From positions 372,001 through 436,000 of the forward strand of contig NZ_CP139971.1 of NCBI RefSeq assembly GCF_034424545.1: a DNA stretch of 64,000 bases, in the 5' to 3' direction. Shown here in pieces: positions 3,714 through 61,395 of this stretch; positions within the stretch are counted from its first letter, which is position 1, and each line of letters starts with the position of its first letter. This DNA comes from Trinickia caryophylli. GTDB taxonomy: Bacteria; Pseudomonadota; Gammaproteobacteria; Burkholderiales; Burkholderiaceae. Below the pieces are notes generated by a model, which saw only the letters and a program-made list of their open reading frames with translations, did no database searches and was not told the origin of the DNA. A program made the translations under genes and the position numbers.

Positions 3714-3775
3714 CAGCGACACCGGCAAGACCAGGTATGGCTCGATCGAATCGGGATACGTTGAGCCATATCAAG

Positions 3776-6773: not shown

Positions 6774-6794
6774 TCGACCTCCCAGGAGAACGCG

Positions 6795-8093: not shown

Positions 8094-8118
8094 CCTCCTC
8101 CCCTATTCGCATCCGATC

Positions 8119-15896: not shown

Positions 15897-16102
15897 GGCG
15901 CGCGATTGTACCTCGATCCGGCACGACGGCCATGCGGCTTCCGCGCGCAATCGCCGTCATGACCACGATGCCGCGCCGTTCCGCTCGCAGACTGCAACCG
16001 CCCCCTGCGCCGCGAAAACGCGGTGCATCGTCGATCATCGGGAGCGGATGCTGCTGCATCGGCGCCAGCGGCCTCACCGCGGGCGATGACTTCGGCCGTC
16101 GT

Positions 16103-17125: not shown

Positions 17126-17150
17126 GTTCGTCTCCTTCTCGATGGCCGCT

Positions 17151-18707: not shown

Positions 18708-18804
18708 GGCCGCACTCTCCTGACAAATCTGAGCAACGAAAACATTCGCTCGATGCGAGGGCGGCACGCAGCCGCGCCTCGTCGGATGATCGGACCGCTG
18801 CCTC

Positions 18805-41468: not shown

Positions 41469-41472
41469 GGTA

Positions 41473-42444: not shown

Positions 42445-42855
42445 GCGCGCCTCCTCGAGTGCTTGTCCGGGTCGAGCCGGCGCCCGACACCACGGGATCG
42501 GACAAGGATGATACGGATGCGGATACGGACACGGAGCAGCCGCACGGCTGCCGCCATGCGCATCCGCGGCTCATCGCGGCGCGTAACGGACGCCGCTGCA
42601 TCGGTGCAGCAATTTTCGTTCTTCGCTCCGCACCGCCGCGCGAAGCATGGCGCCCCATGCGACTGGGCCGACTCATGCTAGCCGTTTCGTCGGAGTTTTC
42701 CAAGTATAGGCAGCGTCCGGGCACTGGCAAGGGCCGTGCCTGGCGCGAAGGAGGAGGACAAACCGCGGGAGGGGAGTACGCGGCGGATGCGGCGGCGGCC
42801 GGCCGCATCGCCGGCTCGAGCAGGGTGACGGTGAGCTCGCGACGAGCGTGCGGAT
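42445..42855. other. Intergenic region upstream of rsbR
   Basis: 411 bp between the SDR stop and rsbR. Open frames crossing it have no ribosome-binding site and biased composition. It contains a likely promoter for the rsb operon (42703-42730) and no clear terminator for the biosynthetic operon. Confidence 0.6.
42703..42730 (-). promoter_or_regulatory. Candidate sigma-70 promoter of the rsb operon
   Basis: On the minus strand: TTGCCA (42730-42725), a 16-bp spacer and TATACT (42708-42703), each 5 of 6 to consensus, about 260 bp upstream of rsbR. Confidence 0.5.
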
Positions 42856-43602
42856 CTACCACCGCTCGGCAAATGGCCTGATCGTATAGTCGAAGGTCCA
42901 GGCGGAGGGATGTTGATGAGCAATATGAAACACTTCGTCCGCGATGGCATCGGGCTGCGCGAAATATTCGTCTCGCGAGAACGGCCAGCCGGCCGGCGGC
43001 TCGGCCCAGGACGGCCGCGTGCGCCCGTCGTCACCCAACCACGCGGCATCGATGACCGCATCGATCATCAGATAGCCGACGTGAACACGCTTCGGGCCCA
43101 GGTCGCGCGCCAGCGCCTCCGCGAGCACGCGTTGCGCGGCCTTCGTCGGCGCGAACAGCGCGTAGTTCGGCTTGCCGCGCAGCGATGCCGTATTGCCCGT
43201 GACGACGATGGCGCCTTCGCCGGCCGCGATCATGTCGGGAGCGCAGGCGCGCGCCAGATGCAGCAACGCCGTGGTATTGACGCGGAAGTTGCGCTCGAGC
43301 GAGGCGGGGTCGCCCTCCAGGAACGTCGCGAACGTTTCCGACACGGCGTTGTGGACGACCACCGACGGTTTGCCCATCGTGCCACGCACCCGATCGATCA
43401 CGGCTTCGAGCCGATCGGGATCGGATACGTCGCACGGGAAGGCAGCCGCCAAGGCAATCTCCTGCTCCAGGCGCGCCAGCCTCTCGCGATTGCGTGCCAG
43501 CATCGCCACGCGGTAACCGTCCCGCGCGAAACGCCGGGCAATTGCAGCGCCCGTCGCATCGCCCACGCCGGTGATCAGGCAGACCCGCTCGTTCGTCACC
43601 AT
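42856..43602 (-). CDS. SDR-family protein with altered catalytic residues
   Basis: A 248-residue short-chain dehydrogenase fold. The cofactor loop TGVGDATGAAIARRF and N109 in FRVNTTALL are present. The usual catalytic Tyr of YxxxK is F150 (FAPTK, K154 kept), and the usual Ser is replaced by N137 (VVTGNTAS), so standard ketone reduction is doubtful. The ATG at 43602 begins the family sequence. It follows the SGNH gene by 88 bp on the same strand and may be the last gene of the biosynthetic operon, or an independent gene. Confidence 0.85.
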   Translation of the reverse strand: MVTNERVCLITGVGDATGAAIARRFARDGYRVAMLARNRERLARLEQEIALAAAFPCDVSDPDRLEAVIDRVRGTMGKPSVVVHNAVSETFATFLEGDPASLERNFRVNTTALLHLARACAPDMIAAGEGAIVVTGNTASLRGKPNYALFAPTKAAQRVLAEALARDLGPKRVHVGYLMIDAVIDAAWLGDDGRTRPSWAEPPAGWPFSRDEYFAQPDAIADEVFHIAHQHPSAWTFDYTIRPFAERW

Positions 43603-43690
43603 GTTCGCTCCGTGCCCCTCGCGTGTTCGCATCGCGGCCGGCGCCGCATCGCCCCGCCCGACCCTCGCACGACGCGGCGCCGGTTCGGTC

Positions 43691-45766
43691 TCATGCGGCT
43701 GCCGCCACGCGCAGGTCGTGCAACTGGCCGAATTGCGTGCGGATATCCACCTTGTGGCCTGCCTCGAAGTCCCTTCGCAGGCGCGGGCGGGCATCCTTGC
43801 GCGACACATTGGGCCAGCGAATCGTCAGTTCGTTGAAACCGCGATTGACGATACCCGCGCTCGCACGCGTGCGCAATGCTGTCCAATCGTCTTTCAAAGT
43901 GGCCTGCATGATCGGCTTGCCGTTCAGTTCGACCACGACGTCGCCCGACTGCGTGGCCCCCGGCAGACGCGACGTGACGTCGATGGCCAGATCCTGCGGC
44001 GACGCGCAGCAGAATGTAAAGCGGCTCTCGACCCCATAGGCCGCGGCGTAAGCGCGCCGATACCAGCGGTTGCGATCGGTCAGCTCCATCGAGTGAGATT
44101 GCAGCAAATCGATCTCGTCGACTTCGCCGATCGAGAGTTCCGGCCCCGGCGCCGCGGACACCACCTCGGGAAACGCGCTCTCGATCGCGCGCAAGAGCGC
44201 ATGCTCCTTGATCACGCCGCGCGCGAGCGGGCTATATCCGACGAGACACACCTCCGCAATGTCGTTCTTGACGATCCGGTCGAACGCGGGCAGCAGCACC
44301 GTGGGCGTCTGGTGGCGGTACGCGTCGTAGACGAGCGCGATATCGGCCGCGATTCCCGGATGGTATTCGCGCGCCTTGCGCAAGTGATAGCTGCAGATTT
44401 CCGGATCCTGGCCCCAGTGCGCATTGTGAATGCCGGCAAGCAGATGGGCCCACGCCTCGTGCTCCGGCTCGGGCCGCGATGCCGCATCGATCAGGTCGCG
44501 AAGGCCGGCCTCCTTGCGGAACAATGCGGGCAGCAGCTTTTGCGAAACAGCGGCCATGGCCACGCGCATGCCTTCCGAAGTGTGGTGACAGAAGTCGAGA
44601 TAAAGACGCCGGCCCGGGATTTCATGCTCGTAGAGATCGCCGAAAAGCTGCGGCAGATCGACGACGGCCGCACCCAGTTCCGGCGCGACGCGGCGAATCG
44701 CGTCGGCCACGTTGACGAAGATGCCCGGTACCACGCGCGTATCCTCGATGATGTCGCGGCTCTTGCGCAGCGTTTCGTACACGTCCTGGCTGCGCTTGCC
44801 CAAGCCTCGCTGCGCACGGGCCAGCAAGTCGAGGCTGGCCGAAGAGGTGCCGCCATCGAGACCGATCGCGTTCGACGCGTAACGCTCGGCCGCCGCGAAA
44901 TCTCCGCTTTGCACCGCCCGTCGCGCGGCTTCGTAGGCGCGGACCCACGCCTGGGTATCATCGGCGGACATGAGCGGAACGTCGAGCGATCCTGCCGGCG
45001 CGCCGGTCCAATCGGCCACGTTGATCTCGGGAATCGCGAACACCACCGGCACGCCGAGCGGCATCAGCGATGCGCCCAACTGCCTGACGACATGGGTCGC
45101 GAACTGCTCGAGGCCGCCCAGTTGCTTTTTCAGGATCTTGGCAAAACCATCGCGCGCTTCGATGAGCTCGCCATCGCCGATGAACGCGTCGACCGACGTA
45201 TTGGCCAGCGCGCCGACACGCCAGTTGTTGCCGGCGAACACGACGACCGCATCGGGCTCGAGCAACGGCACCGAAGCGGCGATCTTCGAGAGCCACCACG
45301 GGTCGCAGTTGCTCTGTGCCAGATCGATCACCTCGACAGGCTCGCCGCAAGCCGTGAGCTGTTCGCGCAGCACCTTGGCCGGGCAATAAACGGGATCGAA
45401 GAAAAATCCGCGTGCGACCGATTCGCCCAGAAGAACGATGCGCTTCTTGTCGCCCTTCTTGCCGATGCGCTCGACGTCCGCGCAAAAGCGCCAAAGGTCG
45501 ATATGCTTGCGAGCGCGAACGAATTCGCCGGTCTCTTCGTCTTCTTCCCAGATGCTGACCGCCCGCTTCTCGGCGGCCTGCCCCTTCAGGCTGGCGAAGT
45601 CCTCGCCGAGCGCGGCAAACGGGCCTGACCAATGATCGGAGCCGTGCGAATCGACACGCGCCGCGTCGTGGCTGAGTAGCTGCAGCACCGACAACGCCGC
45701 GTTGTCCTGCCTGAGCAGTTCCGCAAACCGGCCGCTCAGTTCCTGCCGTATCGAATTGTCTGCCAT
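43691..45766 (-). CDS. Large SGNH-fold protein with inserted helical repeat
   Basis: A 691-residue protein starting at ATG 45766 with GGGAG 8-9 bases upstream. SGNH hydrolase blocks can be seen: S116 in VLLGESVARG, N180/N181 in VVFAGNNW and D391-x2-H394 in YLDFCHHTSEGM. Between the last two, residues 275-325 look like a TPR-type helix pair. A C-terminal 200 residues have no assigned fold. An esterase or acyl/carbamoyl transfer role on the cluster product is possible. It lies 117 bp after the amidohydrolase-like gene. Not a known family to me. Confidence 0.75.
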   Translation of the reverse strand: MADNSIRQELSGRFAELLRQDNAALSVLQLLSHDAARVDSHGSDHWSGPFAALGEDFASLKGQAAEKRAVSIWEEDEETGEFVRARKHIDLWRFCADVERIGKKGDKKRIVLLGESVARGFFFDPVYCPAKVLREQLTACGEPVEVIDLAQSNCDPWWLSKIAASVPLLEPDAVVVFAGNNWRVGALANTSVDAFIGDGELIEARDGFAKILKKQLGGLEQFATHVVRQLGASLMPLGVPVVFAIPEINVADWTGAPAGSLDVPLMSADDTQAWVRAYEAARRAVQSGDFAAAERYASNAIGLDGGTSSASLDLLARAQRGLGKRSQDVYETLRKSRDIIEDTRVVPGIFVNVADAIRRVAPELGAAVVDLPQLFGDLYEHEIPGRRLYLDFCHHTSEGMRVAMAAVSQKLLPALFRKEAGLRDLIDAASRPEPEHEAWAHLLAGIHNAHWGQDPEICSYHLRKAREYHPGIAADIALVYDAYRHQTPTVLLPAFDRIVKNDIAEVCLVGYSPLARGVIKEHALLRAIESAFPEVVSAAPGPELSIGEVDEIDLLQSHSMELTDRNRWYRRAYAAAYGVESRFTFCCASPQDLAIDVTSRLPGATQSGDVVVELNGKPIMQATLKDDWTALRTRASAGIVNRGFNELTIRWPNVSRKDARPRLRRDFEAGHKVDIRTQFGQLHDLRVAAAA

Positions 45767-45883
45767 GTTGATTACTCCCGTCGTTGACATGAACGTGTGA
45801 ACCTTCAGTGCGTCGCACGGCATCGTCGGCGCACGCATTGATCGAGTGAGGCGATGAAGCGGTGCACCGCGCCTGCCAGCCGC

Positions 45884-47011
45884 TCACGCATATGACGCCG
45901 CGAGTTCCGTACGGGCTTGCGCGCCGGTGCCCGCGGCCGCGGCTACACCATCCTGCATTTGCCCGCCATCGACGATCGTGAAAGCGGGCCGGCGCGTCGC
46001 GAGCAACGTCAACAACGCCGCACTGCCGGTGCGATAGTCGTCCGCGGCGTCGCGCTCGAACACGCATACGTCGGCTCGCATGCCGGGGGCGAGCGAGCCG
46101 ACGTCGGCAAGCCCCAGCGCCGCCGCGGCCGCGCGCGTCAACGCATCCGCATAGCAATCGAGCTGCGCGGCCGGCGCAAGCTGTGCGAGCTGGGCCAGAA
46201 ACGTCGGTGCGGCCTCAGCGCTCAAGTGCCATGCGGCAAGACCTTGCGCGAAAAGCGGTGCATATGCGCGCCACTGACCGGCCGCCTCCCCGCCCCCGGG
46301 AACGGCCATCGAAACCGCACACCGCATCCGCCTCAGCAGCCCGACATCGCGCCTATCGATCCCGGCTGCGCCAAACACGGTGACATCCTTGTCGTCGGGC
46401 AGCAGGTAGGCGATCAGCGCGCTTTCGGCGCAGTAAAACCGCGCGCGAAATTCGAGCGCCTCGTCGAGCGTCGGCGCGAGCCGCACGCCGACTCGCGCGC
46501 CCATCGTCTTCGCGAACTTCGCAAACTCGACGAGTTCCGTGGCGGACATGAGCGTGCCCGTTTCGAGCACCGGCATGACGGTCAGCGGGCGTCGCGCGTC
46601 CGTTCGCTCGCGGCCTCGCGACGCTTGGAGGAACCAGTCGAGAAAGCCGTTGACCTGCTCCAGGTAGTTCCCGCCGAATCGCAGCAGCGCCACCGTGCGC
46701 AGGGGCGCCGCCGGCATGGCCGCCGACATTTCGCGCATCGTGGCGCCATGCACGCCGACCGAGGTCACGCACGCCGGCCAGGCCGAACGTGCGGACCCGG
46801 CCATGGTGGCACCGGCTGCGCCGATACCGACGACGCCCGGCGTGCAGACGAGCCGCGACCCGTCCATGCCGTCGGTGAGCGTCGACGTGCCGGCGGGCAG
46901 CATGGCGCTGATACGCCCGCCGGTGATCTCCATATCGCGATGGACAAACGCATGATGCGCGCTGTCGAAGCAGAGGGTTTGCCGAATCACCCAGGATCGA
47001 ACGTGGCCCAT
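45884..47011 (-). CDS. Amidohydrolase-like protein lacking the metal-binding HxH
   Basis: A 375-residue protein of the amidohydrolase superfamily. The small beta domain is recognisable at both ends: the N-terminal strands to TPGVVGIG (residues 57-64) and the C-terminal GSLAPGMRADVCVFERD. At the position of the metal-binding HxH after the PG turn the sequence is IGAAGA, and the other usual histidines were not found, so a normal metal-dependent hydrolase is unlikely. It may have a different chemistry or a structural role. The gene is 18 bp after the carbamoyltransferase gene and clearly in its operon. Confidence 0.75.
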   Translation of the reverse strand: MGHVRSWVIRQTLCFDSAHHAFVHRDMEITGGRISAMLPAGTSTLTDGMDGSRLVCTPGVVGIGAAGATMAGSARSAWPACVTSVGVHGATMREMSAAMPAAPLRTVALLRFGGNYLEQVNGFLDWFLQASRGRERTDARRPLTVMPVLETGTLMSATELVEFAKFAKTMGARVGVRLAPTLDEALEFRARFYCAESALIAYLLPDDKDVTVFGAAGIDRRDVGLLRRMRCAVSMAVPGGGEAAGQWRAYAPLFAQGLAAWHLSAEAAPTFLAQLAQLAPAAQLDCYADALTRAAAAALGLADVGSLAPGMRADVCVFERDAADDYRTGSAALLTLLATRRPAFTIVDGGQMQDGVAAAAGTGAQARTELAASYA

Positions 47012-47029
47012 GCTGCGCGCTCCGGTGGA

Positions 47030-48808
47030 TTACAGGAACGTATAGACGTTGACCGACTCGGGCACCGCGCGCTTTTTTGCCGAGCGCGCACTGAAGATCT
47101 CCTTGAGCTTGGACCAGGTGTCGAGTCTGAAGCCACGATCGACGATGTAATCGCCAATCACGAGCGCGTCGATGTCCGACACGACGAAGCACCAGATCGC
47201 ATCCACCGGATCGAGCACGATCGCATCGCCGCGCATGTTGAACGAGGTGTTCAGCAGGATCGGGCATCCGGTCAGCCGGTCGAACTCGGTCAGCAATGCA
47301 TGAAAGCGCGGATTGCTGGCTTCGGTCACGGTCTGCACGCGGGCCGAGCCATCGACGTGGGTGATCGCCGGCAGCGACAGCCGCGACACCACCTGACACG
47401 TCTCGAGCATGAACGGCGACGCATGATCCAGATCGAAATGCTCGGCGGCCTTCGACTCCAGCACCGCGGGCGCGAAGGGCCGGAACGCTTCGCGCATCTT
47501 CACGAGCGCGTTGATCCGATCCCGCATTTCCGGACGGCGCGGGTCCGCGATGATCGAACGCGAGCCGAGCGCCCGCGGGCCGAACTCCATCCGCCCCTGG
47601 AACCAGCCGATGACCTTGCCGTCCGCGAGCCGCTGCGCGGTTTCGGCGATGAGCGCCTCCGGCCGGTCGGTGCAGTCGACGATCGACGTGTCCGGGAACA
47701 CCGCGCTCACCGCCTTGTGAATCTCGCGATTCGAATAGCTCGGGCCGAGATAGGCGTGCGGCAGCGGCTTGAGTTCGGGGCGCTCGCCCGTGAGGCGCAC
47801 GTGCGCTACCGCGGCGGCGCCGAGCGAGCCGCCCGCATCGCTCGCGGCCGGCTGCACGAACAGCCGCTTGAAAGGCCCCTCGCGCAACACGCGCCCGTTC
47901 GCGACGCAATTGAGCGCGACGCCGCCAGCCATGCAGAGATTGTCGACGGGATGCGTGTCGTGCAAATACTGCGCCTTCGCGAGCAGGATATCTTCGAGCG
48001 TGCGCTGCAGGCTCGCCGCCAGATCCTTGTGGAACGACTCCAGATCCGATTCGGGCTCGCGCGGCGCCTCGCCGAAGAGTTCGGGCAGGCGGTCGGAGTA
48101 CATGCGGTCGCCGTTGAGGAAATCGAAGTACTCCATGTTGAGCCGGTACTGCCCGCGCGCGTCCATTTCGAGCAGACGCTTGACCTGATCGACGTAGAGC
48201 GGACGGCCGTAGGGCGCAAGCCCCATGACCTTGTATTCGGCGTCATTCACGTCGAAGCCCAGATAGGCCGTGATCGTGCTGTAAAGCAGGCCGAGCGAGT
48301 TCGGAAAGGCCACCTCCTCGAAGAGATCGATCCGTTCGCCCTGGCCGAGACCATAAGTGGTGGTCGCCCATTCGCCGACGCCATCGACGGTCAGCAGCCC
48401 GGCCTCCGAGAATCCGGAGTAGAAAAACGAACTGGCCGCATGCGACAGGTGGTGGTCCACATACTCGATCGTCCCGTCGAAGCCGAGGCTTTGCCGAATG
48501 TCGCGCTCGGCCCGCTCCGGGTCCACCTTGAAACGGCGCCGCGGGTTTTGCAGCAGGTCCGACAGATTCGTTGCGATCTGGCGCGACGCCTTCTTGTACG
48601 GATCCTCGTAATACGCGATGCAATCGACGTCCTTGATCGAGACGTCCGCTTCGCGCAGGCAATAACGAAATGCGCCCGTGGGGATGCTGTTGTCGTGCTT
48701 CACTTTCGAGAAGCGTTCTTCTTCGGCCGCGGCAATGAGCTTCCCATCCTTGAGGATGCAACAGGAAGAGTCGTGATAATGCGCGGAAACGCCAACGATT
48801 ATGCTCAT
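47030..48808 (-). CDS. Carbamoyltransferase (NovN/TobZ/CmcH family)
   Basis: A 592-residue O-carbamoyltransferase. The Kae1-like N-terminal domain has GVSAHYHDSSCCIL, VDHHLSHAASSFFYSGF with the metal-binding histidines, VDGVGEWAT and AEYKVMGLAPYG. The YrdC-like C-terminal domain has FQGRMEFGPRALGSRSI, FRPFAPAVL and LLNTSFNMRG. Such enzymes transfer a carbamoyl group from carbamoyl phosphate, through carbamoyl-adenylate, to a hydroxyl of an antibiotic or toxin. Family, length and motif order are all regular. It strongly marks the operon as secondary metabolism. Confidence 0.93.
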   Translation of the reverse strand: MSIIVGVSAHYHDSSCCILKDGKLIAAAEEERFSKVKHDNSIPTGAFRYCLREADVSIKDVDCIAYYEDPYKKASRQIATNLSDLLQNPRRRFKVDPERAERDIRQSLGFDGTIEYVDHHLSHAASSFFYSGFSEAGLLTVDGVGEWATTTYGLGQGERIDLFEEVAFPNSLGLLYSTITAYLGFDVNDAEYKVMGLAPYGRPLYVDQVKRLLEMDARGQYRLNMEYFDFLNGDRMYSDRLPELFGEAPREPESDLESFHKDLAASLQRTLEDILLAKAQYLHDTHPVDNLCMAGGVALNCVANGRVLREGPFKRLFVQPAASDAGGSLGAAAVAHVRLTGERPELKPLPHAYLGPSYSNREIHKAVSAVFPDTSIVDCTDRPEALIAETAQRLADGKVIGWFQGRMEFGPRALGSRSIIADPRRPEMRDRINALVKMREAFRPFAPAVLESKAAEHFDLDHASPFMLETCQVVSRLSLPAITHVDGSARVQTVTEASNPRFHALLTEFDRLTGCPILLNTSFNMRGDAIVLDPVDAIWCFVVSDIDALVIGDYIVDRGFRLDTWSKLKEIFSARSAKKRAVPESVNVYTFL

Positions 48809-48901
48809 GGTCTCACCAGTCTCGGGTTGGAACGAAGGGTAAAGAGAACCGTGGCGCGCGAGCCCGCGGCCGCGCCAATCCGCCGGTCGGTCATGCTTGC
48901 G

Positions 48902-50299
48902 TTACCGCGATACGGCGTTGAGCGCCTTTCTCAGAGACTCGAAAATGCGCGGCACGTCCGCCTCGCCCGTGCGCCAGTTCGTGAAGGCGACGCGTAACCC
49001 CCAGGTGCCGGCATACACGGTGCTCGTCACGAACACGTCGCCCAGATCGCGCACGGCGCGCACGTAGGCGTTGATGCGCGCCTCGTCGGGCTCGCTCGCG
49101 AGCGTGAAGCAAACGACGTTGACCCGCGTCGGTGCCAGCAGCCGAAAACCCGGATCCGCGCTGATCTTCTCGCCGAGCACCTGTGCCAGCGCGATGTTGC
49201 GCGCGACGATCTCCGCATGGCCCGCACGGCCATAGGCGGCCAGCGAAAACCAGGTGGCGAGCGCACGCAGCCGCCGCGAGTTTTCCGGCGTCAAATGCAC
49301 GAAATCAGGGTTTTCCGCAGGCACGCCGAGATACGCGGCGCTGTTCTGGAACACGCGTACCTGCAGGTCGCGCCGGCGCGTGAACTGAACGGCGGCGTCG
49401 TACGGCACGTTGAGCCATTTGTGCAAGTCGATGCAGATCGAATCGGCGAGGTCGAGGCCATCGACGAGCCGCGCGTAATCGGGGGCGAGCGCCACGAACG
49501 CGCCGAACGCGGCATCCACGTGCAGCCAGAACGGATAACGCTGCTTGAGCGCCGCGATGGCTGCCAGATCGTCGAAGTCGACCGTATTGACGGTGCCGGC
49601 ACTCGCGACGACGATGGCCGGCTCCCCGCCGAGCGCCGCCAGCGCATTTTCGAGCGCATCGACATCGATCGCTTCCCGCTGCGGCAGCGTCGCGATCTTC
49701 TGCACGGCGTTGCGGCCGATGCCGAGCATCGAAAGCGACTTGTAGATGCTCGAATGCGGCGTGGCCGAAAGCACGCGTACCGGGCCGAGCGCCGCCACGC
49801 CCTGCTCGAATACGCGAACCTGCTTGCATTCGCCGAGCCACTCGCGGCCGATTGCGAGCCCCACGAGATTCGACATGGTGGCGCCCGTCACGAACACGCC
49901 CTGCTGCGCCTCGCCGAGCCCGAACAATTCCTTCAGCCGGGCAACCGTCTCGCGCTCGAGATCGGGCGCCGCGCTATCGATGCCGGCGGTCGGATTCTGA
50001 TCGTAGACGCTCGTGAGCCAATCGCCGGCCAGCGACGCGGGGGTCGCGCCGCCCGTAACGAAGCCGAGATAGCGCGGGCCCGCGCTGCCGGAAAACCCGG
50101 CCGCCCAGCGTTCGGCGAACTCGGACAGCGCGCCTTCGAGTCCGGCCCCCTCTTCGGGCAACGGGCGGACGTTCGCCGCCGGCGGGGCGAGCGCGGCTGG
50201 ACGGTCGTCGAGACTGGCGAGCGCCGAAACCGCGTGCTGCCGGGTGCGCTCGAGCAGCGTATCGACGTTGGCTAGGTCGGAGGCAAGTGTCGGATGCAT
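48902..50299 (-). CDS. PLP-dependent amino acid decarboxylase (group II)
   Basis: A 465-residue fold-type I PLP decarboxylase. The PLP lysine is K294 in CIDLHKWLNVPYD, the ring-stacking His is H182 in SATPHSSIYKS, and the Asp holding the pyridine N is D262 in HVDAAFGAFVAL. It belongs to the aromatic/glutamate/diaminobutyrate decarboxylase group; the substrate cannot be read from sequence. It starts 76 bp after the haem-oxygenase-like gene. It probably makes an amine building block, or decarboxylates the C-terminal residue of the ATP-grasp product. Confidence 0.9.
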   Translation of the reverse strand: MHPTLASDLANVDTLLERTRQHAVSALASLDDRPAALAPPAANVRPLPEEGAGLEGALSEFAERWAAGFSGSAGPRYLGFVTGGATPASLAGDWLTSVYDQNPTAGIDSAAPDLERETVARLKELFGLGEAQQGVFVTGATMSNLVGLAIGREWLGECKQVRVFEQGVAALGPVRVLSATPHSSIYKSLSMLGIGRNAVQKIATLPQREAIDVDALENALAALGGEPAIVVASAGTVNTVDFDDLAAIAALKQRYPFWLHVDAAFGAFVALAPDYARLVDGLDLADSICIDLHKWLNVPYDAAVQFTRRRDLQVRVFQNSAAYLGVPAENPDFVHLTPENSRRLRALATWFSLAAYGRAGHAEIVARNIALAQVLGEKISADPGFRLLAPTRVNVVCFTLASEPDEARINAYVRAVRDLGDVFVTSTVYAGTWGLRVAFTNWRTGEADVPRIFESLRKALNAVSR

Positions 50300-50375
50300 G
50301 GCGAAATTGAAAAACGGAAAGAGTGGCGACAAAAGGACGGGCGCCGGCATGCGCCGGCCGCCCGGCACGGCTTGC

Positions 50376-51290
50376 TCAATGCAGCTTGCGGTTCATCAGC
50401 TCCCGCGCGCCCGCGTAATACTCCTTCTCGATCTGGTAGCGGATCAGACACCCTTCGCACAGGTCCCGGATGAGACGCGGATTCTTGCGCGCGAGCGGCA
50501 GCAGCACGCGCGCGACCAGTTGCTTGCCATGATTCGCGTCCACCGGCACATGAAGCTCGTGGTAGTAACGGAACTCCTTGGGCACGTCGTGGCGCTGCAT
50601 GCCCTTGAGCATGCGGGTGAAGCGGTACGGCACCGTCTGCTCGAGCAGCGTCAGCGCGCCGAGCAGACGGCCTACGTGCTGCCGCCGCAGCGCATACATC
50701 AACAGCAGGTTGCCGTTCTTCATCGCGGCCACAGGCATATCCACCTCGAGATCGAGCTCGCCGAGCTGAGCCTTGAAATACGGCGCGGCCCGCATGAACG
50801 TGCGCGTATGCATTTCGTCGAGTTCGCCGAGGCCCATTTCGTCCCAGAAATTCTCGGCAAGCGCGAGCTTCATGTCGCCATCCATGCCCAGTTGGGAGAG
50901 CGCGATGATGTCGTCGAAACGGCCATCCACCTGGGCCTCCAGCGCAACGAAAAGCGACAACTGCGGCAGCGATGCCTCTTCCGCGAGAAAGTCGAAGAAC
51001 GGCGCCACCTCCTTGCGATGCGTATTGCGCAGCGCGACGTACCACTCCTCGAACTCGTCGGCATTGGAGGGCAACTCGCCGAGCACGACGCGCGAGGCTT
51101 CGTAGTCGCTCCAGGCCGTCTCCAAGCCGAGAATGCGTGCGTAGTCCTCGGCCAACGGCACCGTCTCGGGTGCGCTGGGCGGCGCCAGCTCTCTCAGGTA
51201 AAACGAATTGAGTTCCATTTGGCCGGCGAGCGTGTTGCAGCGGTCCGGCTCGTTCCATTGCGGTTGCGTACTCACGGTCTTGACTCCCAT
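50376..51290 (-). CDS. Haem-oxygenase-like diiron oxidase/oxygenase (canonical ligands)
   Basis: A 304-residue all-helical protein of the iron-containing redox enzyme family. Metal-ligand candidates fit the family: E118 in ALEAQVDGRFDD, E151 and H161 in FWDEMGLGELDEMH, and H247-x3-D251-x2-H254 in HVPVDANH. Related enzymes N-hydroxylate amines (SznF), cleave amino acids (BesC) or decarboxylate fatty acids (UndA). MGVKTV at 51290 is the likely start; M25 (51218) is another. It lies 47 bp after an ATP-grasp gene. It is one of two such enzymes in the operon; the ferredoxin gene is a likely electron source. Confidence 0.88.
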   Translation of the reverse strand: MGVKTVSTQPQWNEPDRCNTLAGQMELNSFYLRELAPPSAPETVPLAEDYARILGLETAWSDYEASRVVLGELPSNADEFEEWYVALRNTHRKEVAPFFDFLAEEASLPQLSLFVALEAQVDGRFDDIIALSQLGMDGDMKLALAENFWDEMGLGELDEMHTRTFMRAAPYFKAQLGELDLEVDMPVAAMKNGNLLLMYALRRQHVGRLLGALTLLEQTVPYRFTRMLKGMQRHDVPKEFRYYHELHVPVDANHGKQLVARVLLPLARKNPRLIRDLCEGCLIRYQIEKEYYAGARELMNRKLH

Positions 51291-51337
51291 CTCGTCGATC
51301 GATTTATGAAAATGCGCATCGTCGATGCGCGGATGAA

Positions 51338-52621
51338 TCAACGCAGTGCCGCGTGCGCGGCTTCGGTGTACGAGCGCAAACGCGAGGCCGCTGTCTCGCG
51401 CGACGACCCGCTGGCCGCGAAGAGCGCGCCAATCCAATCGCGCGTGGCCTGCCAGCGCTCGTGCGCGACAATGCCGGCCAGCGGCGCCTCGTGCGCCGAA
51501 TAGGTCACCTTGCGTTTCAGCTGTGCGCCGATGGGCAGCTCCACCCAGCGCACGAGCGATGGATCGCCGCGGAACGCGTCGATGCCGGCGATTCCGTCGT
51601 ACGTCTCCTCCTCGAGCGTATGGCCCGGAAAGACGAACCAGCCGTGCCAGCGGGCATTGGTCTGCGTTGGCGGCAACTGGCGCGACGGCGTCCCATCGAT
51701 CAGCAGCCGCAGTTCTTCGGACGGCAGATGCACGCCCGTTGCGTACTCGAATGTGGCGACGACATCGGCTCCACCGACGCGGTTGCCGACTTCGAGAAAC
51801 ACGAGCTCGTCGCCGCTTTCGATTGCTTCGAGATGGAAGCTGCCCTGGCGGATGCCGACGGCGCGCAGCGCGGCGCTCACCCATTCACTCGTTGGCGCGG
51901 ACACCGGAAAGTGATACGAACCGAGCGGCTTGCCGTTCGCATAGTCCAGGCACGTTCCGATATAGCGGCTTGCCGTGAGCGTCAGTACATCGCCCTGCGC
52001 GACGAGCCCATCGAAGTGCAGAATGTCTCCCGTCACGAACTCCTCGAGCTCGTAGCCACCGGTTGCCGGCGTTGGGGAGTCGAGCCGCGCGACGCCGCTG
52101 CGGCGCGAGCGGATGGCGGCGAGCGCCGCCTCCATCGTCTCGAACACCACCACGTCTTCGCTCGACGCACCCGCGAGCGGCTTGAGCACCGTCCGGCCGC
52201 GCCATCCGGCCGCGCCCGGCGATTCGACGAGCGCCGGCAGGCCGACGAATCGCGGCACGCGCAGGCCCGCGCGGCCGACCGCCTCCTTCATGGCCACCTT
52301 GTCGCGCACGAGCCGCACTTCGTCGTAGGTCGGGCCGGGCGCGACGAGCCACGCACGCAGCCGCGCCGCGTCGAGCAAGTCGTACTCGGAGAGCGCAATC
52401 ACGCGGTCGAAATTCCGCGGCGTGCGTGTGAGCCACGCCTGCGCCTCCTCGAACGTGCCGGCCTGGCCCGGCCGCTCGACCTGCTCGCAACGCAGCCCGT
52501 GAGGAAGCGTTGCAAGCAGCTCGGGCACGCCGAAGTAGGTAACCTCGTGCCGATCGTGATCGATGCCGCGGGCGTATTCGATTCGCGGATAAGGCACGCG
52601 ATGCAGGACGAGAATGTTCAT
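51338..52621 (-). CDS. ATP-grasp ligase 1
   Basis: A 427-residue ATP-grasp enzyme. The ATP lysine region is GRTVLKPLAGASSEDVVV, the hinge is LEEFVTGDILHFDG, and the metal-binding end is FLEVGNRVGGADVV. An N-terminal pre-ATP-grasp domain (MNILVLHRVPYPRIEYARG) precedes. Family members form amide bonds by way of acyl phosphates, as in L-amino acid ligases. It starts 13 bp after ATP-grasp 2. Which acid and amine it joins is unknown. Confidence 0.88.
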   Translation of the reverse strand: MNILVLHRVPYPRIEYARGIDHDRHEVTYFGVPELLATLPHGLRCEQVERPGQAGTFEEAQAWLTRTPRNFDRVIALSEYDLLDAARLRAWLVAPGPTYDEVRLVRDKVAMKEAVGRAGLRVPRFVGLPALVESPGAAGWRGRTVLKPLAGASSEDVVVFETMEAALAAIRSRRSGVARLDSPTPATGGYELEEFVTGDILHFDGLVAQGDVLTLTASRYIGTCLDYANGKPLGSYHFPVSAPTSEWVSAALRAVGIRQGSFHLEAIESGDELVFLEVGNRVGGADVVATFEYATGVHLPSEELRLLIDGTPSRQLPPTQTNARWHGWFVFPGHTLEEETYDGIAGIDAFRGDPSLVRWVELPIGAQLKRKVTYSAHEAPLAGIVAHERWQATRDWIGALFAASGSSRETAASRLRSYTEAAHAALR

Positions 52622-52634
52622 CGGCTTGCTCCGG

Positions 52635-53987
52635 TCAGGCGGCGGCGAGCGTCGTGCGCGCGAGCGAGGCCGCATGCGCGGGCTCGAACACCTGGCGCGA
52701 CTCGCCGAGCACGGAAAGCCACGTCGCGCGGACGGTGGCCACGACGCTATGGATGTCCTGCGCGTCGCTATCGACGACCAAACAGGCTTGCGCGGCAAAA
52801 TCGGCGTTGTCGCGAGGCAATGCCGGGATGAAGCGTGTGCCCTCGCCCAGCCATCCGAACTCGATCCGGCGGATGGCCTCGGCGCCGAGCAGGGCCGAGG
52901 CGCGCGCGAGCGTCCGGTCGAACAGGATTTCGCCCTGTGCGGTATCGGGCGGCGTCAGCATGCCGTCGACAGGCACGCCGAGCATGACGGTGGCGGCCCG
53001 CTTCCCCGACGGGGCGACAGCCGGCTCGCGCGCCACGCCGAAAGCGGCATCGACCCACAACGCGTAGAAATCGATACCGTAGACCTGCTCCGCGATGGTC
53101 CAGATCTTCATACCCGCCGGCCGCCGGTTCGGCTCGACCACGGCCGCGCACAGGCCGGCGTCGTCGAGCTTTATTTCGTTATGGAACGGCCCCGTGTGCT
53201 GACCGACAAGCACATTGGCCAGCCGCCCGGCACGCGTGATCGTCGTCCGCTCTCTCGACGTGATTCGCGCCGGCAGGATTTGCGCAACCTCGACGGGGTA
53301 CCGGCCGTGCGCGCTGACCTTCTCCGTGATGAACTCGGTGGCCCCGACACCGTCGAACGAAAATTCGCGCGAGAACGGTATGAATCCCTCGCAAATGGCG
53401 CCGCGCGACAAATACGGGGCAACGGCGGCGAACGCGGCATCGAGATTGTCCCCGCGCTTGACCACCACCACGCCCCGATTGTTGCCCTCGCACGACGGTT
53501 TGACGACGAACCCATTGGGGTGGGCGTCGGCAAAACGCCTCAGATCGTCGACGGTGCGCACCTCCACGCAGTCCGGCACCATGATCTGCTGCGCTTCGAG
53601 CAGGTCGCGTACGCGCGCCTCGCTCACGCGATACGCATGCTTGCTGTACGAATTCGCGGCAAGTGCCGACGAATCCACCGGCAACGACAACCGTTCGAGC
53701 AGCGCGGCGCCGCTTTGCACGGCGTTGTCGGAGAACACCATGCCCGCGCGCAGGCGGTCGCGCCACGGCTTCAGGTAATACAGCGCCTGCTCGACGAAAT
53801 CGTCGGCGAGCGGATCGAGGTCGATCAGATATTGGCAGATCTGACGATCGCGCTCGTTCGGATTCGAACGGATCAGAATCGTGTCGGCACCATGCCGCTC
53901 GCGCGCGTACGACGCGATGTGTGCGACGTCCGCTACCCGCGTGAGGTTGTAGTCGACGATCAACAGCAAAGGTCTGGGCATGTTCAT
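52635..53987 (-). CDS. ATP-grasp ligase 2, atypical C-terminal end
   Basis: A 450-residue ATP-grasp protein. FVVKPSCEGNNRGVVVVK gives the ATP lysine and glycine-rich loop, and AICEGFIPFSREFSFDG the hinge and central strand. The usual E-x-N-x-R-x-GG near the end of the domain is not obvious; the corresponding part reads NRRPAGMKIW, and a later piece is IEFGWLGEG. Either a variant metal site or a changed activity is implied. It overlaps ATP-grasp 3 by 4 bp (ATGA), a sign of coupled synthesis. Confidence 0.83.
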   Translation of the reverse strand: MNMPRPLLLIVDYNLTRVADVAHIASYARERHGADTILIRSNPNERDRQICQYLIDLDPLADDFVEQALYYLKPWRDRLRAGMVFSDNAVQSGAALLERLSLPVDSSALAANSYSKHAYRVSEARVRDLLEAQQIMVPDCVEVRTVDDLRRFADAHPNGFVVKPSCEGNNRGVVVVKRGDNLDAAFAAVAPYLSRGAICEGFIPFSREFSFDGVGATEFITEKVSAHGRYPVEVAQILPARITSRERTTITRAGRLANVLVGQHTGPFHNEIKLDDAGLCAAVVEPNRRPAGMKIWTIAEQVYGIDFYALWVDAAFGVAREPAVAPSGKRAATVMLGVPVDGMLTPPDTAQGEILFDRTLARASALLGAEAIRRIEFGWLGEGTRFIPALPRDNADFAAQACLVVDSDAQDIHSVVATVRATWLSVLGESRQVFEPAHAASLARTTLAAA

Positions 53988-55333
53988 GATTGAGCCTCCA
54001 AAGCGAGAGATGGGGTCCGGTAACGAACGTCGATGGTCGTTGCCGACTCCGCCAGCAGCGCCGTGAGCGTTTCGTCACGCTCGGCTCGCGTCATGCTCCA
54101 GAGCAGTTGACCCAAAAAGGCTTCGCGTGGCGTATCGGGCACGACGTCGCCGGCCTTGAGAAGAATCTGTTCGATCACCGGGTGCCGTGTGCCGGGCCGG
54201 ACTTCGATGCTGTCGATCTGGCCCGGCGCCGCGAAATAGACACGAAAGAACGTGGCGAGCGCGGTAGGCGGCGTGCCGTCCTGCTGGTAGGCAAGACGCC
54301 GGAACGTATTGGCGAGTCCCGCGTACTGAACACCGCCGGCCTGCTCGAGCAAGAGCGCGAGCCAGAGCTCGAGCATGCCCGCCTCGCCGTTCAGGGACTT
54401 GACGCTCGGCGAGATGAGGCTGCCGCCAACGCGCGGGTTGATCTCGATCAGGTCCCAGCGCGAGCCGTCGAAGCGGGCTTCGACGTGAAAGCAGCCCCAG
54501 TCGAGCTGCAACTGCGCGAATACGGCGCGCAGCCAGGCGAGCCCAGCCGCGACGCTGCCTGCCGAGATCGATGCAGGCGGGCTCGTGCAACTGTCTTCGA
54601 GCACTGTCCCGTTCGCTTCGGTCAGCTCGCACTTTTCGTGGATGGCGAAGACGTGCGGGTCTCCATGCGATACCAGCAGCTCGAAGCTGAACTCGGTGCC
54701 GCCGAGATAATCCTCGGCGACGAACGTCACCGTCTCGCCGAGCGCGGAGGCATAAACCGTATCGGCATGCGCGTGTGCGGCAATGGCTTCGAGCGTCGCC
54801 CAGGTCGTATCGGGCGCGAGCCGAAACGCGCCGTACGAGGCGATACCGCGCGCCGGCTTGATGAAGTATCTGCCGCCGTCGCGTTTCAGCGCATCGAGTA
54901 CGTCGGGCGTGAGCACGCGCGCCGCGATACGCGAGAGGCCCGTGCGATGCAGCTCGCTGCGCACGGCGAATTTGTCGCGCAGGAACTCGATTCGCTGAGC
55001 CGGCAAATCGCTCACGCCCAAAAGCATGTTCGCGTGGGCCATCAGCGCGCGATAGCCCTCCCATACGCTGATACAGGCGCGAATCGAATGCCCCTGCGCC
55101 TGCAGCGAGGCGATCGCGCGCTCCACGTCCCCGGCCCCGAGCACGTGGGAATCGCTCGCCAGCACCGCTGCGGCCATGCTCCGCAGTTTGTTCAGCCGTT
55201 CTTCGCCGTGCTCCGGCAATGGAAGCGAGCTGAGCACGAACGGCTGCAGGCCGCGCGACCTGATTGCCGCGATCAGATCCTCGGCGAACGAGAATCCGCA
55301 ATGACTCAGGATGAGAACGCCGGTGTGCGCCAT
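53984..55333 (-). CDS. ATP-grasp ligase 3
   Basis: A 449-residue ATP-grasp enzyme starting at the second of two ATGs (55333), which has GAGGAG 8 bases upstream. The ATP site is RYFIKPARGIASYGAFRL, the hinge FVAEDYLGGTEFSFELLV, and the metal motif DLIEINPRVGGSLISPS is a full E-x-N-x-R-x-GG match. This is the most canonical of the three and resembles L-amino acid ligases. It follows the other haem-oxygenase-like gene by 22 bp. Confidence 0.88.
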   Translation of the reverse strand: MAHTGVLILSHCGFSFAEDLIAAIRSRGLQPFVLSSLPLPEHGEERLNKLRSMAAAVLASDSHVLGAGDVERAIASLQAQGHSIRACISVWEGYRALMAHANMLLGVSDLPAQRIEFLRDKFAVRSELHRTGLSRIAARVLTPDVLDALKRDGGRYFIKPARGIASYGAFRLAPDTTWATLEAIAAHAHADTVYASALGETVTFVAEDYLGGTEFSFELLVSHGDPHVFAIHEKCELTEANGTVLEDSCTSPPASISAGSVAAGLAWLRAVFAQLQLDWGCFHVEARFDGSRWDLIEINPRVGGSLISPSVKSLNGEAGMLELWLALLLEQAGGVQYAGLANTFRRLAYQQDGTPPTALATFFRVYFAAPGQIDSIEVRPGTRHPVIEQILLKAGDVVPDTPREAFLGQLLWSMTRAERDETLTALLAESATTIDVRYRTPSLALEAQS

Positions 55334-55355
55334 CGCCATGTCTCCTCGTTGCCGG

Positions 55356-56108
55356 TCAGGCCGCGGCCTTCAACGCGGGCGCGATCTTGTCCTCGTAGAG
55401 CTCCTTGAAGTACAGGGCGAGGACCGTCTGATGCTCGTGCAGATAGCGCTTGAGCGCGTCGATATCTTCATCGCTGCGCAGCAGGTAGCGGATCGCCTGC
55501 CACACTTCGCCCGGATGGTCGTCGTTGATATCCGTATGCGAATGCGCTATCTGCCCGGTGATGTTGGTTTCGCCGACCGAATCCTTCAGCGCCTTGAGCT
55601 TGCGCGGCTCGAGCTTCACGTTGACGTACTCGACGAGGTAGGAATAGGCGATCACGCCAAGCGGACCCTCGTGGTCGAGCAGATAGGAGAAGAACCCGGT
55701 GAGCAGCTTGGTGGACAGGTACGGCTCGGTTGCCAGGAACTGTTCGCGCGAGACGCCCGCTCGCTCCAGGTCCTGAACGAAGAGCTCGTCGTGGAGCATC
55801 TCCTCGCGCTCGTAGTTCGCCCAGATCTGCGCCGCCTCGGGGCTTTGCTTGGCCACTTCCGCGAGCGTTTTCGACTCGGAAACGCGCAGCAAACGGATGC
55901 GCCAGGCCGTTTCGATCAGGTGGCGCCGGTAATACTCGGAGTCGACTTTCTTTCCTTCGAGATGAGCGGCGTAGGGTACCGTTTCGTACCAGTTATCGAT
56001 TTGCGCGTCGATAATCGAGTCGATTTCCTTGCGCAATTCCAACGAGCGCTGGGCGTTGAGAAAAGGGATGCGATTGCCCAAGCCTGCGTTTTTGACGCGA
56101 TTGCTCAT
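55356..56108 (-). CDS. Haem-oxygenase-like metal enzyme (second copy, variant ligands)
   Basis: A 250-residue all-helical protein of the same broad fold as the enzyme at 50376. Candidate ligands are E103 and H106 in EREEMLHDEL, E160 in YLVEYVNVKL, and H189, H191, D193, D197 and H198 in HSHTDINDDH. Read as H-x3-D-x2-H the central position is N195, so the third set of ligands differs from the canonical form. It is 67 bp after the ferredoxin gene and early in the operon. It probably carries out an O2-dependent step such as N-oxygenation or C-C cleavage. Confidence 0.8.
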   Translation of the reverse strand: MSNRVKNAGLGNRIPFLNAQRSLELRKEIDSIIDAQIDNWYETVPYAAHLEGKKVDSEYYRRHLIETAWRIRLLRVSESKTLAEVAKQSPEAAQIWANYEREEMLHDELFVQDLERAGVSREQFLATEPYLSTKLLTGFFSYLLDHEGPLGVIAYSYLVEYVNVKLEPRKLKALKDSVGETNITGQIAHSHTDINDDHPGEVWQAIRYLLRSDEDIDALKRYLHEHQTVLALYFKELYEDKIAPALKAAA

Positions 56109-56175
56109 AATTCCTTCCTTTAGGTGTAAAGAAGAGACCGCCGAAAAATCGGCCGAACAGATTGGTCTGGTTAAC

Positions 56176-56469
56176 CTACTGCGAAGCCGCCCGAATCGTC
56201 ACCGCTCCATTGACACTGCATTGACATGCCAATCTAAAAGAATCTCCGGGAAATCCGAGCGTCTCCAGAAAATCCCGCTCCTCTCTCCCCTTGGCGCCGA
56301 GATAATCCACGCCCTGCAATATCTCAATTACGCAAGCCCCGCACACGCCCGCCCGGCAGCCAAATGGGACGGATTCCTGACCATGAAGCTCAAATTCCAG
56401 TTCTGTCAAGGAGCTACCGTTCGGTAATATCACCTCAACGTTCTGAGGCATCAGCTTTACGATGTGCAT
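56176..56469 (-). CDS. Plant-type [2Fe-2S] ferredoxin
   Basis: A 97-residue ferredoxin with cluster cysteines in FGCRAGVCGACVIEI (C-x4-C-x2-C) and the fourth in RLACQCSV. The start at MHIVKLMPQNVEV gives the usual length; a codon at 56514 would add 15 residues. Neither has a good ribosome-binding site. First gene of the long biosynthetic operon, it probably feeds electrons to the two haem-oxygenase-like enzymes. No reductase gene is present in the cluster. Confidence 0.88.
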   Translation of the reverse strand: MHIVKLMPQNVEVILPNGSSLTELEFELHGQESVPFGCRAGVCGACVIEILQGVDYLGAKGREERDFLETLGFPGDSFRLACQCSVNGAVTIRAASQ

Positions 56470-56561
56470 GACGAATCCAACATGATTGTCGCAGCCCGAC
56501 GGAAGTGCAGCCATGCAACGCGCCAGGCAACAAGAGGGCTATTGGTGCGAACGTCGAGCAC

Positions 56562-56880: not shown

Positions 56881-57384
56881 TCAGTCCGCTTCGTAGATGT
56901 CCTTTTCCGAGGCGAACTCCGCCACGTGGCGCCGTACCTCGTCAACCGTTCTGACGACCGTGTCTTCCGGGCCGAGCAGCCGCCCATCCTGCGAGCGAAG
57001 CTCGAGCCGCTTGACCGGTAGACCATGCTCCCGGTCGACCAGGCAAACACGGCATTCGGACGGTTCGAAGAAATATTGCTCGCCCCACTGCCTGAGCGCC
57101 ACGAGCAGCGGAAACAACCCCCTGCCCTTTTCCGTCAATACGTACTTTTGATAGGCACTGCCATCGGACGCGGGCACCGTCTCGAGAATCCCATGCTCCA
57201 CGAGGTTGCGAAGCCTCGTGGTCAGGATGTTTTTGGCAAGGCCCAGGTTTTTCTGGAACTCGCCAAAGCGCTCGAGCCCGTCGAAAGCATCGCGAACGAT
57301 CAGCAGGGACCACCAGTCTCCGATCGCGTCCAAGGGCCGTGCTATGGGACAAGACGTTCCCTTGTGACTCGTTCGCTTGACCAT
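56881..57384 (-). CDS. HxlR-family regulator next to the biosynthetic operon
   Basis: A 167-residue HxlR winged-helix protein. SCPIARPLDAIGDWWSLLIV carries the conserved Cys and tryptophans, and RFGEFQKNLGLAKNILTTRL is the recognition part. A further C-terminal 50 residues contain CRVCLVD. GGAGGG lies just before the ATG at 57384. It is directly upstream of the biosynthetic operon on the same strand, separated by a terminator, and is the obvious candidate to bind the palindrome at 56576. The redox or ligand signal is unknown. Confidence 0.87.
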   Translation of the reverse strand: MVKRTSHKGTSCPIARPLDAIGDWWSLLIVRDAFDGLERFGEFQKNLGLAKNILTTRLRNLVEHGILETVPASDGSAYQKYVLTEKGRGLFPLLVALRQWGEQYFFEPSECRVCLVDREHGLPVKRLELRSQDGRLLGPEDTVVRTVDEVRRHVAEFASEKDIYEAD

Positions 57385-57680
57385 CGGGCCCTCCAGTTTC
57401 AGCACAGAGACTGGTCCGGCCGGCCTCGATCGAGTACGTCACGGCAACGTACCGCCGAAGACCCTGGTTCGACCTTCATCGAGTACCAGACCATGGACGC
57501 GCCGCAACTTCGAACAACAATGTCGTGCGAAACCGCAGTGCAACTGGTTCCATTATAAAACTCAGACCGGGCGAGAACAAACCCGCCTGAGATTGGCCGC
57601 AGAGCGGTCGGCCTGCACCAAGGCGCATCCGGTTTCGCTCGATAGGCCAGCCGGGCACTTGCAAAGCGGGAATGCGCTTG

Positions 57681-58400
57681 TCAGCGCAGACGAAAATCGG
57701 TGAAGCGGATCCACACGAGCAGCCGGTTGCGATCGGGCTCGTCGTCGACACCGCGCGCATAGGCATGGCGCCGTGTAGGGAAACGCAGGCCCTGGACTTC
57801 GGCGTGGTCGGACACGTAGTGCGCCACGCGGGCCTTGCCCGAAACGTCGAGATGGTAATCCTGGCGCCGCAGCAGATAGTCCGGCCCGAAGTAGAACCGC
57901 TGCTCGCTGCTGTGGCTCGCGAGCGAATCGGGCAGCACGACCTGAAGCACACGCCAGACTTCGCCGTCTTCGTACCAGGGCGCGGCCTCTTGTGCCTGAA
58001 CGCCCGGCAGCGCGAGCAGGAACGGCGTGGCGAGGTAGGTCCAAAGCGCGTAGCCGTTGAAGTAGGCGCGGCGGGGAATGTCCCAGTACGCGTGCTCGCC
58101 GTATCCGGCGAATGCCGCGCGCGGATCGGACAGTTCCTGCACGAGCCGATGATCGAAGTCTTCGATGACCACACGCTCGGGCGTAAACGTCATGCGGTGG
58201 TCTGGCGCATCGTAAGGCGATATGCTCGTCCACTCCTGCGCCGTCCTGATCGTGACATTGCCCCAGCCGTGGTTCTCCGGAATGCCTTTGGACGCCCAGA
58301 AGGGTCCGCCGGTAGCGCTTTTCACGGCCAGTTCGTTGAAGGCATTCCAACGATCGAGGCCGCCATAGGCGTCGAGTACGTTGCTCAAGAGATCGTCCAT
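57681..58400 (-). CDS. Unknown conserved-type protein, 239 residues
   Basis: Starts at ATG 58400 (GAGGAG upstream), MDDLLSNVLDAYGGLDRWN. No signal peptide or membrane helix. Several short strands with aromatic residues (YFNGYALWTYLATPFLL, SSEQRFYFGPDYLLRRQDYH) suggest a beta-rich lipocalin- or LolA-like fold, but I do not recognise the family. It lies 154 bp after the MFS exporter gene on the same strand and may share its message. Function not assigned. Confidence 0.7.
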   Translation of the reverse strand: MDDLLSNVLDAYGGLDRWNAFNELAVKSATGGPFWASKGIPENHGWGNVTIRTAQEWTSISPYDAPDHRMTFTPERVVIEDFDHRLVQELSDPRAAFAGYGEHAYWDIPRRAYFNGYALWTYLATPFLLALPGVQAQEAAPWYEDGEVWRVLQVVLPDSLASHSSEQRFYFGPDYLLRRQDYHLDVSGKARVAHYVSDHAEVQGLRFPTRRHAYARGVDDEPDRNRLLVWIRFTDFRLR

Positions 58401-58554
58401 CGGACGCTCCTCGGAAAACGGAAAATGCGGGTGAATGAAGACCGGCGACGATGCCGGCAAGACGGATACGGCGGGGGCACCCCGTCACGCGAGGCAGGGT
58501 GCCCTGTCGTTGCGCGCGCCGCCTCGAGCGCGGCGCGCGCCACCCCATGTCTGC

Positions 58555-60099: not shown

Positions 60100-60433
60100 G
60101 GGTCGTTGTTTCCCGATTCGATGTTGACGGGCTGGCATTGCCACCGGCGCTCTCCCGCCGCGGCGTTGAGCCATTCGATACGAACGCGATACGGGCCAAG
60201 GGCGACAGCCCGCATCTGGTTTTAAAATGAAACCAATGCGAATGCTAGTCGATCAGGTATCAATTTGCAACCATATTGCATACGGGAATACCCTCGGTCG
60301 ATCGCCCCGATGGGGCGACGCCGCAAACAGGACAAAGCGATGGAATCCGGCGCGGCAGGCCGCCGGGGCCGAGGCGGTGTAATGACGGCGGACGCCTGTG
60401 CCGCTGGCGCGCCACCGTACGCTGGACGGGTGC
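60100..60433. other. Intergenic region upstream of the MFS exporter
   Basis: 334 bp without a credible gene. It contains TGGTTT-N7-AAACCA (60218-60236) with TTTTAAAA inside, a probable operator or promoter element for the exporter gene. Confidence 0.45.
60218..60236. promoter_or_regulatory. Inverted repeat upstream of the MFS exporter
   Basis: TGGTTT-TAAAATG-AAACCA, 6-bp perfect arms, 119 bp upstream of the exporter ATG. TetR- and LysR-type regulators use sites of this kind; the binding protein is unknown. Confidence 0.4.
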
Positions 60434-61321: not shown

Positions 61322-61395
61322 TGAGAGAGATTAGCGAATTTTCACAAGCTCGACACCTGCTTACGATGGGTCTCCCGATAAACAAGGAGATCATC

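Follow-up and report, generated by a model that had tools for sequence, protein, structure and literature searches.

What might be made by a bacterial operon that joins three ATP-grasp ligases to two haem-oxygenase-like diiron oxidases (HDOs) and encodes neither a non-ribosomal peptide synthetase (NRPS) nor a polyketide synthase (PKS), and which of its genes form the conserved unit? The operon lies in Trinickia caryophylli (assembly GCF_034424545.1; host genome of 6.59 Mb in two contigs) on a stretch of 64,000 nucleotides, contig NZ_CP139971.1, positions 372,001 to 436,000, which we call the window and to which all coordinates refer. We found conservation to centre on a five-gene cassette and not on the whole 13.6-kb operon. 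With moderate confidence we propose that the cluster makes a short modified peptide without NRPS or PKS, in which one oxidase (HDO1) would desaturate a side chain, a second (HDO2) and a decarboxylase would provide an amine, and carbamoylation and export would follow.

The cluster comprises 11 genes at 42856-56514, all on the minus strand, with intergenic spacing of -4 to +117 bp (67, 16, -4, 13, 47, 76, 93, 18, 117 and 88 bp from the ferredoxin gene downstream in gene order); start positions were set after inspection of the frames. A first-pass annotation, made from the sequence without database searches, had described a unidirectional operon with this spacing, lacking NRPS and PKS and holding three ATP-grasp ligases, two haem-oxygenase-like enzymes, a ferredoxin, a pyridoxal phosphate (PLP)-dependent decarboxylase and a carbamoyltransferase. 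Pfam and PDB matches agreed with it on all these genes, and the window open reading frames (ORFs) scanned by Pfam yielded no adenylation, condensation, carrier or ketosynthase domain.

A five-gene cassette is the conserved unit

The cassette begins with Fd (56176..56514), a plant-type [2Fe-2S] ferredoxin of 112 aa (Pfam Fer2, 1.2e-8) with C-x4-C-x2-C spacing in its translation. It is followed by HDO1 (55356..56108), an HDO related to the oxidase MboA, whose match to Pfam Haem_oxygenas_2 reached 27.6 bits (cut-off 28.9). The three ligases are AG1 (53984..55339; Pfam ATP-grasp_4, 4.6e-16; PDB 3vot, 2e-8), which is L-amino-acid-ligase-like, AG2 (52635..53987; ATP-grasp_4, 1.5e-5 and 25.1 bits with a cut-off of 27; 3vot, 9.5e-4), which carries E-x-N-x-R, and AG3 (51338..52621), which carries E-x-x-N-R and matched no Pfam family but the PDB L-amino acid ligase 4wd3 (4.3e-11). 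Stand-alone L-amino acid ligases are thus matched by AG1 and AG3, and weakly by AG2. Ligases of the 4wd3 and 3vot type belong to rhizocticin- and bacilysin-type pathways, in which we know of no HDO.

We gathered further loci by an HDO1 scan of representative genomes (20 loci) and by plasmid and whole-genome searches. After removal of duplicate reads of the same contig and of a second Burkholderia stagnalis strain (L012 beside L028), 27 distinct loci remained (the window, L024-L043, L073, L074, L075, L077, L099 and L100). The core Fd-HDO1-AG1-AG2-AG3 was complete in 25 of them; contig ends truncate the remaining two, L035 (a 4-kb contig) in AG2 and L099 in AG1. A ferredoxin match was present in all 26 loci other than the window. 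The complete loci keep this gene order on one strand; the exception is L037 of Chromobacterium vaccinii, whose AG3-like gene is placed upstream instead. Hosts of the core are Burkholderia, Trinickia, Caballeronia, Paraburkholderia, an Enterobacteriaceae metagenome-assembled genome (MAG), Chromobacterium, Streptomyces, three cyanobacteria and a gammaproteobacterial MAG.

HDO1 was matched at ≤1e-20 in 36 of 398 sampled Burkholderiaceae genomes (paralogues included) and at 1e-8 in 3 of the 398 genomes of a phylum-wide sample (own genome included), in which no identified MboA turned up for comparison. With the decarboxylase as query, 20 plasmid records were matched. Of the two that were opened, that of Burkholderia stagnalis carries the cluster, and the 24.8-kb stretch from Deinococcus has no core genes annotated. 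One or other of two gene families, the scanned members of which are major facilitator superfamily (MFS) exporters, lies beside the core in 11 of 14 uncut core-only loci (L075, L077 and L100 were outside that scan). L032 also carries an EamA gene. Just past the exporter of L040 lies a rubredoxin-reductase-type oxidoreductase, a possible reductase for the ferredoxin.

HDO2, decarboxylase and carbamoyltransferase are accessory to the core

Below AG3 the operon continues with HDO2 (50376..51290), a haem-oxygenase-like diiron protein of N-oxygenase type, a PLP-dependent group II decarboxylase (48902..50299; Pfam Pyridoxal_deC, 5.3e-42; PDB decarboxylases) and a carbamoyltransferase of the NodU/NovN/TobZ type (47030..48808), both domains of which are complete (Carbam_trans_N, 5.4e-71; Carbam_trans_C, 1.7e-68). 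The stretches in which we counted such accessory genes mostly span 20 kb around HDO1, and some end before the last cluster genes. HDO2 and the decarboxylase occurred together in 11 of the 27 loci and never singly; both were missing from 14 uncut loci and from the two contig-cut ones. The carbamoyltransferase was present in six loci (window, L024, L025, L026, L031 and L073), all of them with HDO2 and the decarboxylase, while L074 has HDO2, the decarboxylase and a short-chain dehydrogenase/reductase (SDR) and no carbamoyltransferase within 20 kb. The carbamoyltransferase, which the first-pass annotation counted into the operon, is therefore present but an accessory add-on.

The other five carbamoyltransferase loci carry the same genes at 49-92% identity to the window cluster, so the grouping of these genes is not due to chance. 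The 13.6-kb set proposed earlier as the unit thus recurs in this type, but the conserved block reaches further upstream, to 60174 in the window, on the same strand. An HxlR-type regulator (56881..57405; Pfam HxlR, 4.8e-19) precedes the cluster in all six loci and in L074. Beyond it, five of the six have an uncharacterised protein (57681..58460; no Pfam match) and an MFS exporter (58555..60174; MFS_1, 1.3e-46), with 72-84% and 77-85% identity, respectively, in four of the five loci other than the window.

We built a FastTree phylogeny from the joined core proteins, leaving out L099 and L100 and placing the root on L040 ourselves. The six carbamoyltransferase loci and L074 formed one group (support 1.00), with L074 outside the six (0.86). 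Next to this group stood the core-only pair L032/L075, and beyond it a second cluster type (L027-L030) with HDO2, MFS, decarboxylase, DsbB, FdxA and NTF2-like genes. This position of L032/L075 between the two HDO2-bearing types suggests more than one gain or loss of the HDO2 module. Trinickia diaoshuihuensis holds both types (L025 and L029).

The operon ends with three further genes. The first encodes a degenerate amidohydrolase-like protein (45884..47011; weak Pfam matches at the C-terminus only), present in four of the six carbamoyltransferase-type loci and missing in two. No N-terminal HxH metal motif was seen in the three distinct sequences inspected, and we therefore set it aside as an active enzyme. 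The second (43691..45766) matched no Pfam family. We take it to be an SGNH-hydrolase-type protein because of its motifs GESVARG, GNN and DFCHH, which are invariant in the window protein and three orthologues; the gene is found in five of the six loci, and the sixth stretch stops short of its position. The last is the SDR (42856..43602; Pfam adh_short, 1.8e-31).

HDO1 resembles an alkyne-forming oxidase but has a different pocket

By sequence, the best characterised match of HDO1 was MboA (6.4e-16), with which alkyne formation by an HDO was first reported; it acts on a peptide side chain in Leu-Ala-Arg (PMC13185094, the source of our mbo comparison). All 11 MboA residues named in that paper could be located in the HDO1 alignment. 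The six iron ligands (3-His/3-carboxylate), Asp90 and Tyr82 are identical, and the Arg-pocket residues Asn57/Asp61/Asp139 are replaced by Leu74/Glu78/Ser156. None of the 42 HDO1 rows, among them several repeat reads of a single locus, departed from the Leu/Glu/Ser set, and all kept Tyr82, the proposed base. Its kinship with MboA makes a side-chain desaturase/acetylenase role more probable for HDO1 than N-oxygenation, and its substrate residue is probably not arginine.

MboA belongs to the mangotoxin pathway of Pseudomonas syringae (mboABCDEF), which combines an HDO, a redox partner and ATP-grasp ligases (PMC13185094); mboA to mboD mutants lack mangotoxin, and MboF has EamA domains (PMC3355146). 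Both systems share the six ligands and the base of the HDO, a dedicated redox protein, stand-alone ATP-grasp ligases and an exporter, and the mbo genes likewise include no NRPS or PKS. They differ in the Arg-binding triad, in the redox partner (the flavin and [2Fe-2S] NAD(P)H reductase MboB against a protein with a Fer2 domain only), in the ligases (two making a tripeptide against three ligase genes) and in the exporter (EamA against MFS). The deiminase MboE, of amidinotransferase fold, had no Pfam counterpart among the ORFs scanned at 37770-62088, and HDO2, the decarboxylase, the carbamoyltransferase, the SGNH protein and the SDR are extra to the mbo set. Since pocket, type of redox partner, deiminase and exporter differ, the cluster works like mangotoxin biosynthesis yet is not a member of that type.

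The first-pass annotation knew of no characterised pathway with this combination. That holds for the exact set, and no product-linked cluster with these genes was among the literature matches listed, but mangotoxin is a precedent in logic. The same study counted 1447 HDO sequences near ATP-grasp genes, in at least 25 cluster types (Figure S2C of PMC13185094). Its main text names neither Burkholderia nor Trinickia, and the present cluster may be an orphan among those types. VarO shares about 30% identity with MboA (PMC13185094); it is required for a double bond in Arg of thiovarsolin, and the var cluster also has an ATP-grasp gene (PMC6511847). We liken it to our cluster by description, not by the VarO sequence; unlike our cluster, it makes a ribosomal peptide with YcaO/TfuA, for which no match was found among the scanned window ORFs.

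HDO2 resembles the N-oxygenase HrmI

The PDB matches of HDO2 were led by HrmI (1.2e-29), followed by 9pfw (an iron-containing redox enzyme, 5.1e-6), PbrRohS (3.3e-3) and, weakly, BesC. The alignment with HrmI spans 251 residues, and Glu151, His161, Glu217, His247, Asp251 and His254 of HDO2, which from the general HDO pattern we take to be the metal ligands, are identical in HrmI. HrmI and BelK, which turn lysine into a nitro compound by a six-electron oxidation at N6, act in NRPS pathways; HDO2 differs from both in being paired with a decarboxylase. HrmI converts the side-chain amine of lysine to a nitro group (PMC13108848). The matches of the decarboxylase include diaminobutyrate and desferrioxamine decarboxylases. 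Since none of the 27 loci has HDO2 but lacks the decarboxylase, we infer that the two act together in a single sub-pathway that yields an N-oxygenated amine. The N-oxygenation considered possible at first pass would accordingly fall to HDO2 rather than to HDO1.

Proposed pathway and alternatives

In the pathway that we propose, the three ATP-grasp ligases would couple amino acids to a tri- or tetrapeptide. HDO1, with Fd as presumed electron donor, would dehydrogenate the unactivated side chain of a (C-terminal) residue to an alkene or alkyne, a step modelled on MboA. HDO2 and the decarboxylase would supply the N-oxygenated amine unit (hydroxylamine or nitro), the carbamoyltransferase would cap a hydroxyl or amine, and the SGNH protein and SDR may tailor the product further before export by the MFS protein. 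What the data establish is the gene content, its conservation, the enzyme families, and for HDO1 the intact diiron and base residues together with the altered pocket; each reaction, the reaction order and the product are put forward here as a model. By analogy, the product would be an antimetabolite-like peptide. The near-universal core of the loci, the likeness in logic to mbo, the matches of HDO1 to MboA and of HDO2 to HrmI, the pairing of HDO2 with the decarboxylase and the exporter kept in five of six loci argue for this pathway.

Several observations weigh against it. The similarity of HDO1 to MboA is only distant, and HDOs can differ in chemistry even when ligand sets and substrates are nearly identical (PMC13108848), so that resemblance to MboA does not prove desaturation. 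A bare ferredoxin stands in place of an MboB-type reductase, ligase specificities are not readable from the sequence, and a fold model of the SGNH protein had to be discarded (pLDDT of 43, built on four sequences, two of them truncated). In the fold comparison, true haem oxygenases, TenA and PqqC scored nearly equal to UndA and HrmI, and the fold therefore does not indicate function. MboA was not among the listed fold-search matches, which is uninformative on fold distance because its entries (9YPI/9YPL/9YPM) may postdate the library (to 8 April 2026).

The same peptide cluster could accordingly harbour another HDO1 chemistry, such as ring closure (as in PolF), C-C cleavage (as in UndA/BesC) or oxygen insertion, and form no alkene or alkyne. 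We consider this unlikely but a serious contender: fold searches place CADD, UndA and HrmI structures close, and similar ligand sets support different reactions (PMC13108848), but MboA is the best characterised match and the base tyrosine is present throughout. The view of the first-pass annotation, in which the whole operon is the unit and a carbamoylated amine or peptide with N-oxygenation its hallmark, appears improbable. Operon-like spacing and the retention of most of the set in the six carbamoyltransferase loci, within the limits of their stretches, speak for it; 21 of the 27 loci, however, have the core or a remnant of it without a carbamoyltransferase in the stretch examined, and HDO1 is MboA-like, not N-oxygenase-like. 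Slightly more improbable still is a metallophore or signal, in which an N-hydroxy or N-nitroso amine made by HDO2 and the decarboxylase would serve as metal ligand on a peptide carrier. The resemblance of HDO2 to N-oxygenases and the desferrioxamine- and diaminobutyrate-type decarboxylase matches would fit such a product, but no siderophore synthetase or receptor was found among the scanned window genes, and HDO2 is missing from the 14 uncut core-only loci.

Returning to the peptide pathway with a desaturating HDO1, a bolder version is tentative and somewhat doubtful: HDO1 may found a widespread subfamily of Leu/Glu/Ser-pocket, non-arginine peptide desaturases/acetylenases, whose peptide would in Burkholderiaceae be joined to a nitro or hydroxylamino amine made by HDO2, with a carbamate added in one branch. 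With the same catalytic residues and a different invariant pocket, from Burkholderiaceae to cyanobacteria, these enzymes offer a set for asking what decides HDO substrate and outcome. The cassette also suggests that genome mining based on NRPS and PKS would overlook a family of small peptides.

Neighbouring genes and related clusters

Directly downstream of the cluster, on the same strand (38737-42444), lie genes for a protoglobin-STAS protein, a histidine-kinase-like ATPase, a SpoIIE-type phosphatase and a PAS histidine kinase with an RsbU N-terminal domain, which look like a stress-signalling module unrelated to the cluster. The ORF 50272-51258 (-) was rejected as HDO2, being a shadow of the true, overlapping frame. 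On inspection, 41432-42862 (-), 57562-58548 (-), 61342-62088 (-), 41449-42681 (+) and 57672-58607 (+) were also shadow frames.

Among the core-only loci, L036, L037, L038 and L043 (Streptomyces, Chromobacterium and cyanobacteria) have in common a luciferase-like monooxygenase family (scanned members in L036 and L037); the regions concerned lie at 14916-19381, 7792-9544, 16584-17696 and 16384-17550, respectively. Flavin-reductase-type matches lie nearby in L036 and L037, and L036 has a fatty-acid-desaturase-type gene.

HDO1 paralogues (44-50% identity) occur in a separate HDO/ATP-grasp cluster with a divergent 5-enolpyruvylshikimate-3-phosphate synthase (AroA)-like gene and often a DUF1611-like protein. 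Such loci are L021 in the same genome (G000:C2:57000-76999, at 3057-10559), L078, L088-L094, L096 and L098. Of 16 paralogue loci listed, 14 were opened, and 11 of these have the AroA-like gene; L087, one of the three without it, is cut by a contig end. That of the T. caryophylli genome is only 28-29% identical to the other AroA encoded there, and it may thus either serve biosynthesis as an enolpyruvyl transferase or be a resistant copy of the target. One paralogue branch also has a HisC-like aminotransferase. In another Trinickia (L095, G001:C1:1533000-1552999), positions 5906-10390 hold a divergent set of ferredoxin, HDO and three ligases with 35-45% identity to the window core and the pocket set Met/Gln/Ser.

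Other HDO2 relatives (25-32%) were found in Trinickia in further neighbourhoods (L019, L020, L022 and L023); that of L022 adjoins an ATP-grasp-like gene, and that of L020 lies near a decarboxylase-like gene. A third kind of HDO, 27% identical to HDO1, is encoded on the Burkholderia stagnalis plasmid plas2 (L012, 24461-31307), about 16 kb from the core cassette, next to opine-dehydrogenase-like genes, a phytanoyl-CoA dioxygenase family gene and a tyrosinase family gene.

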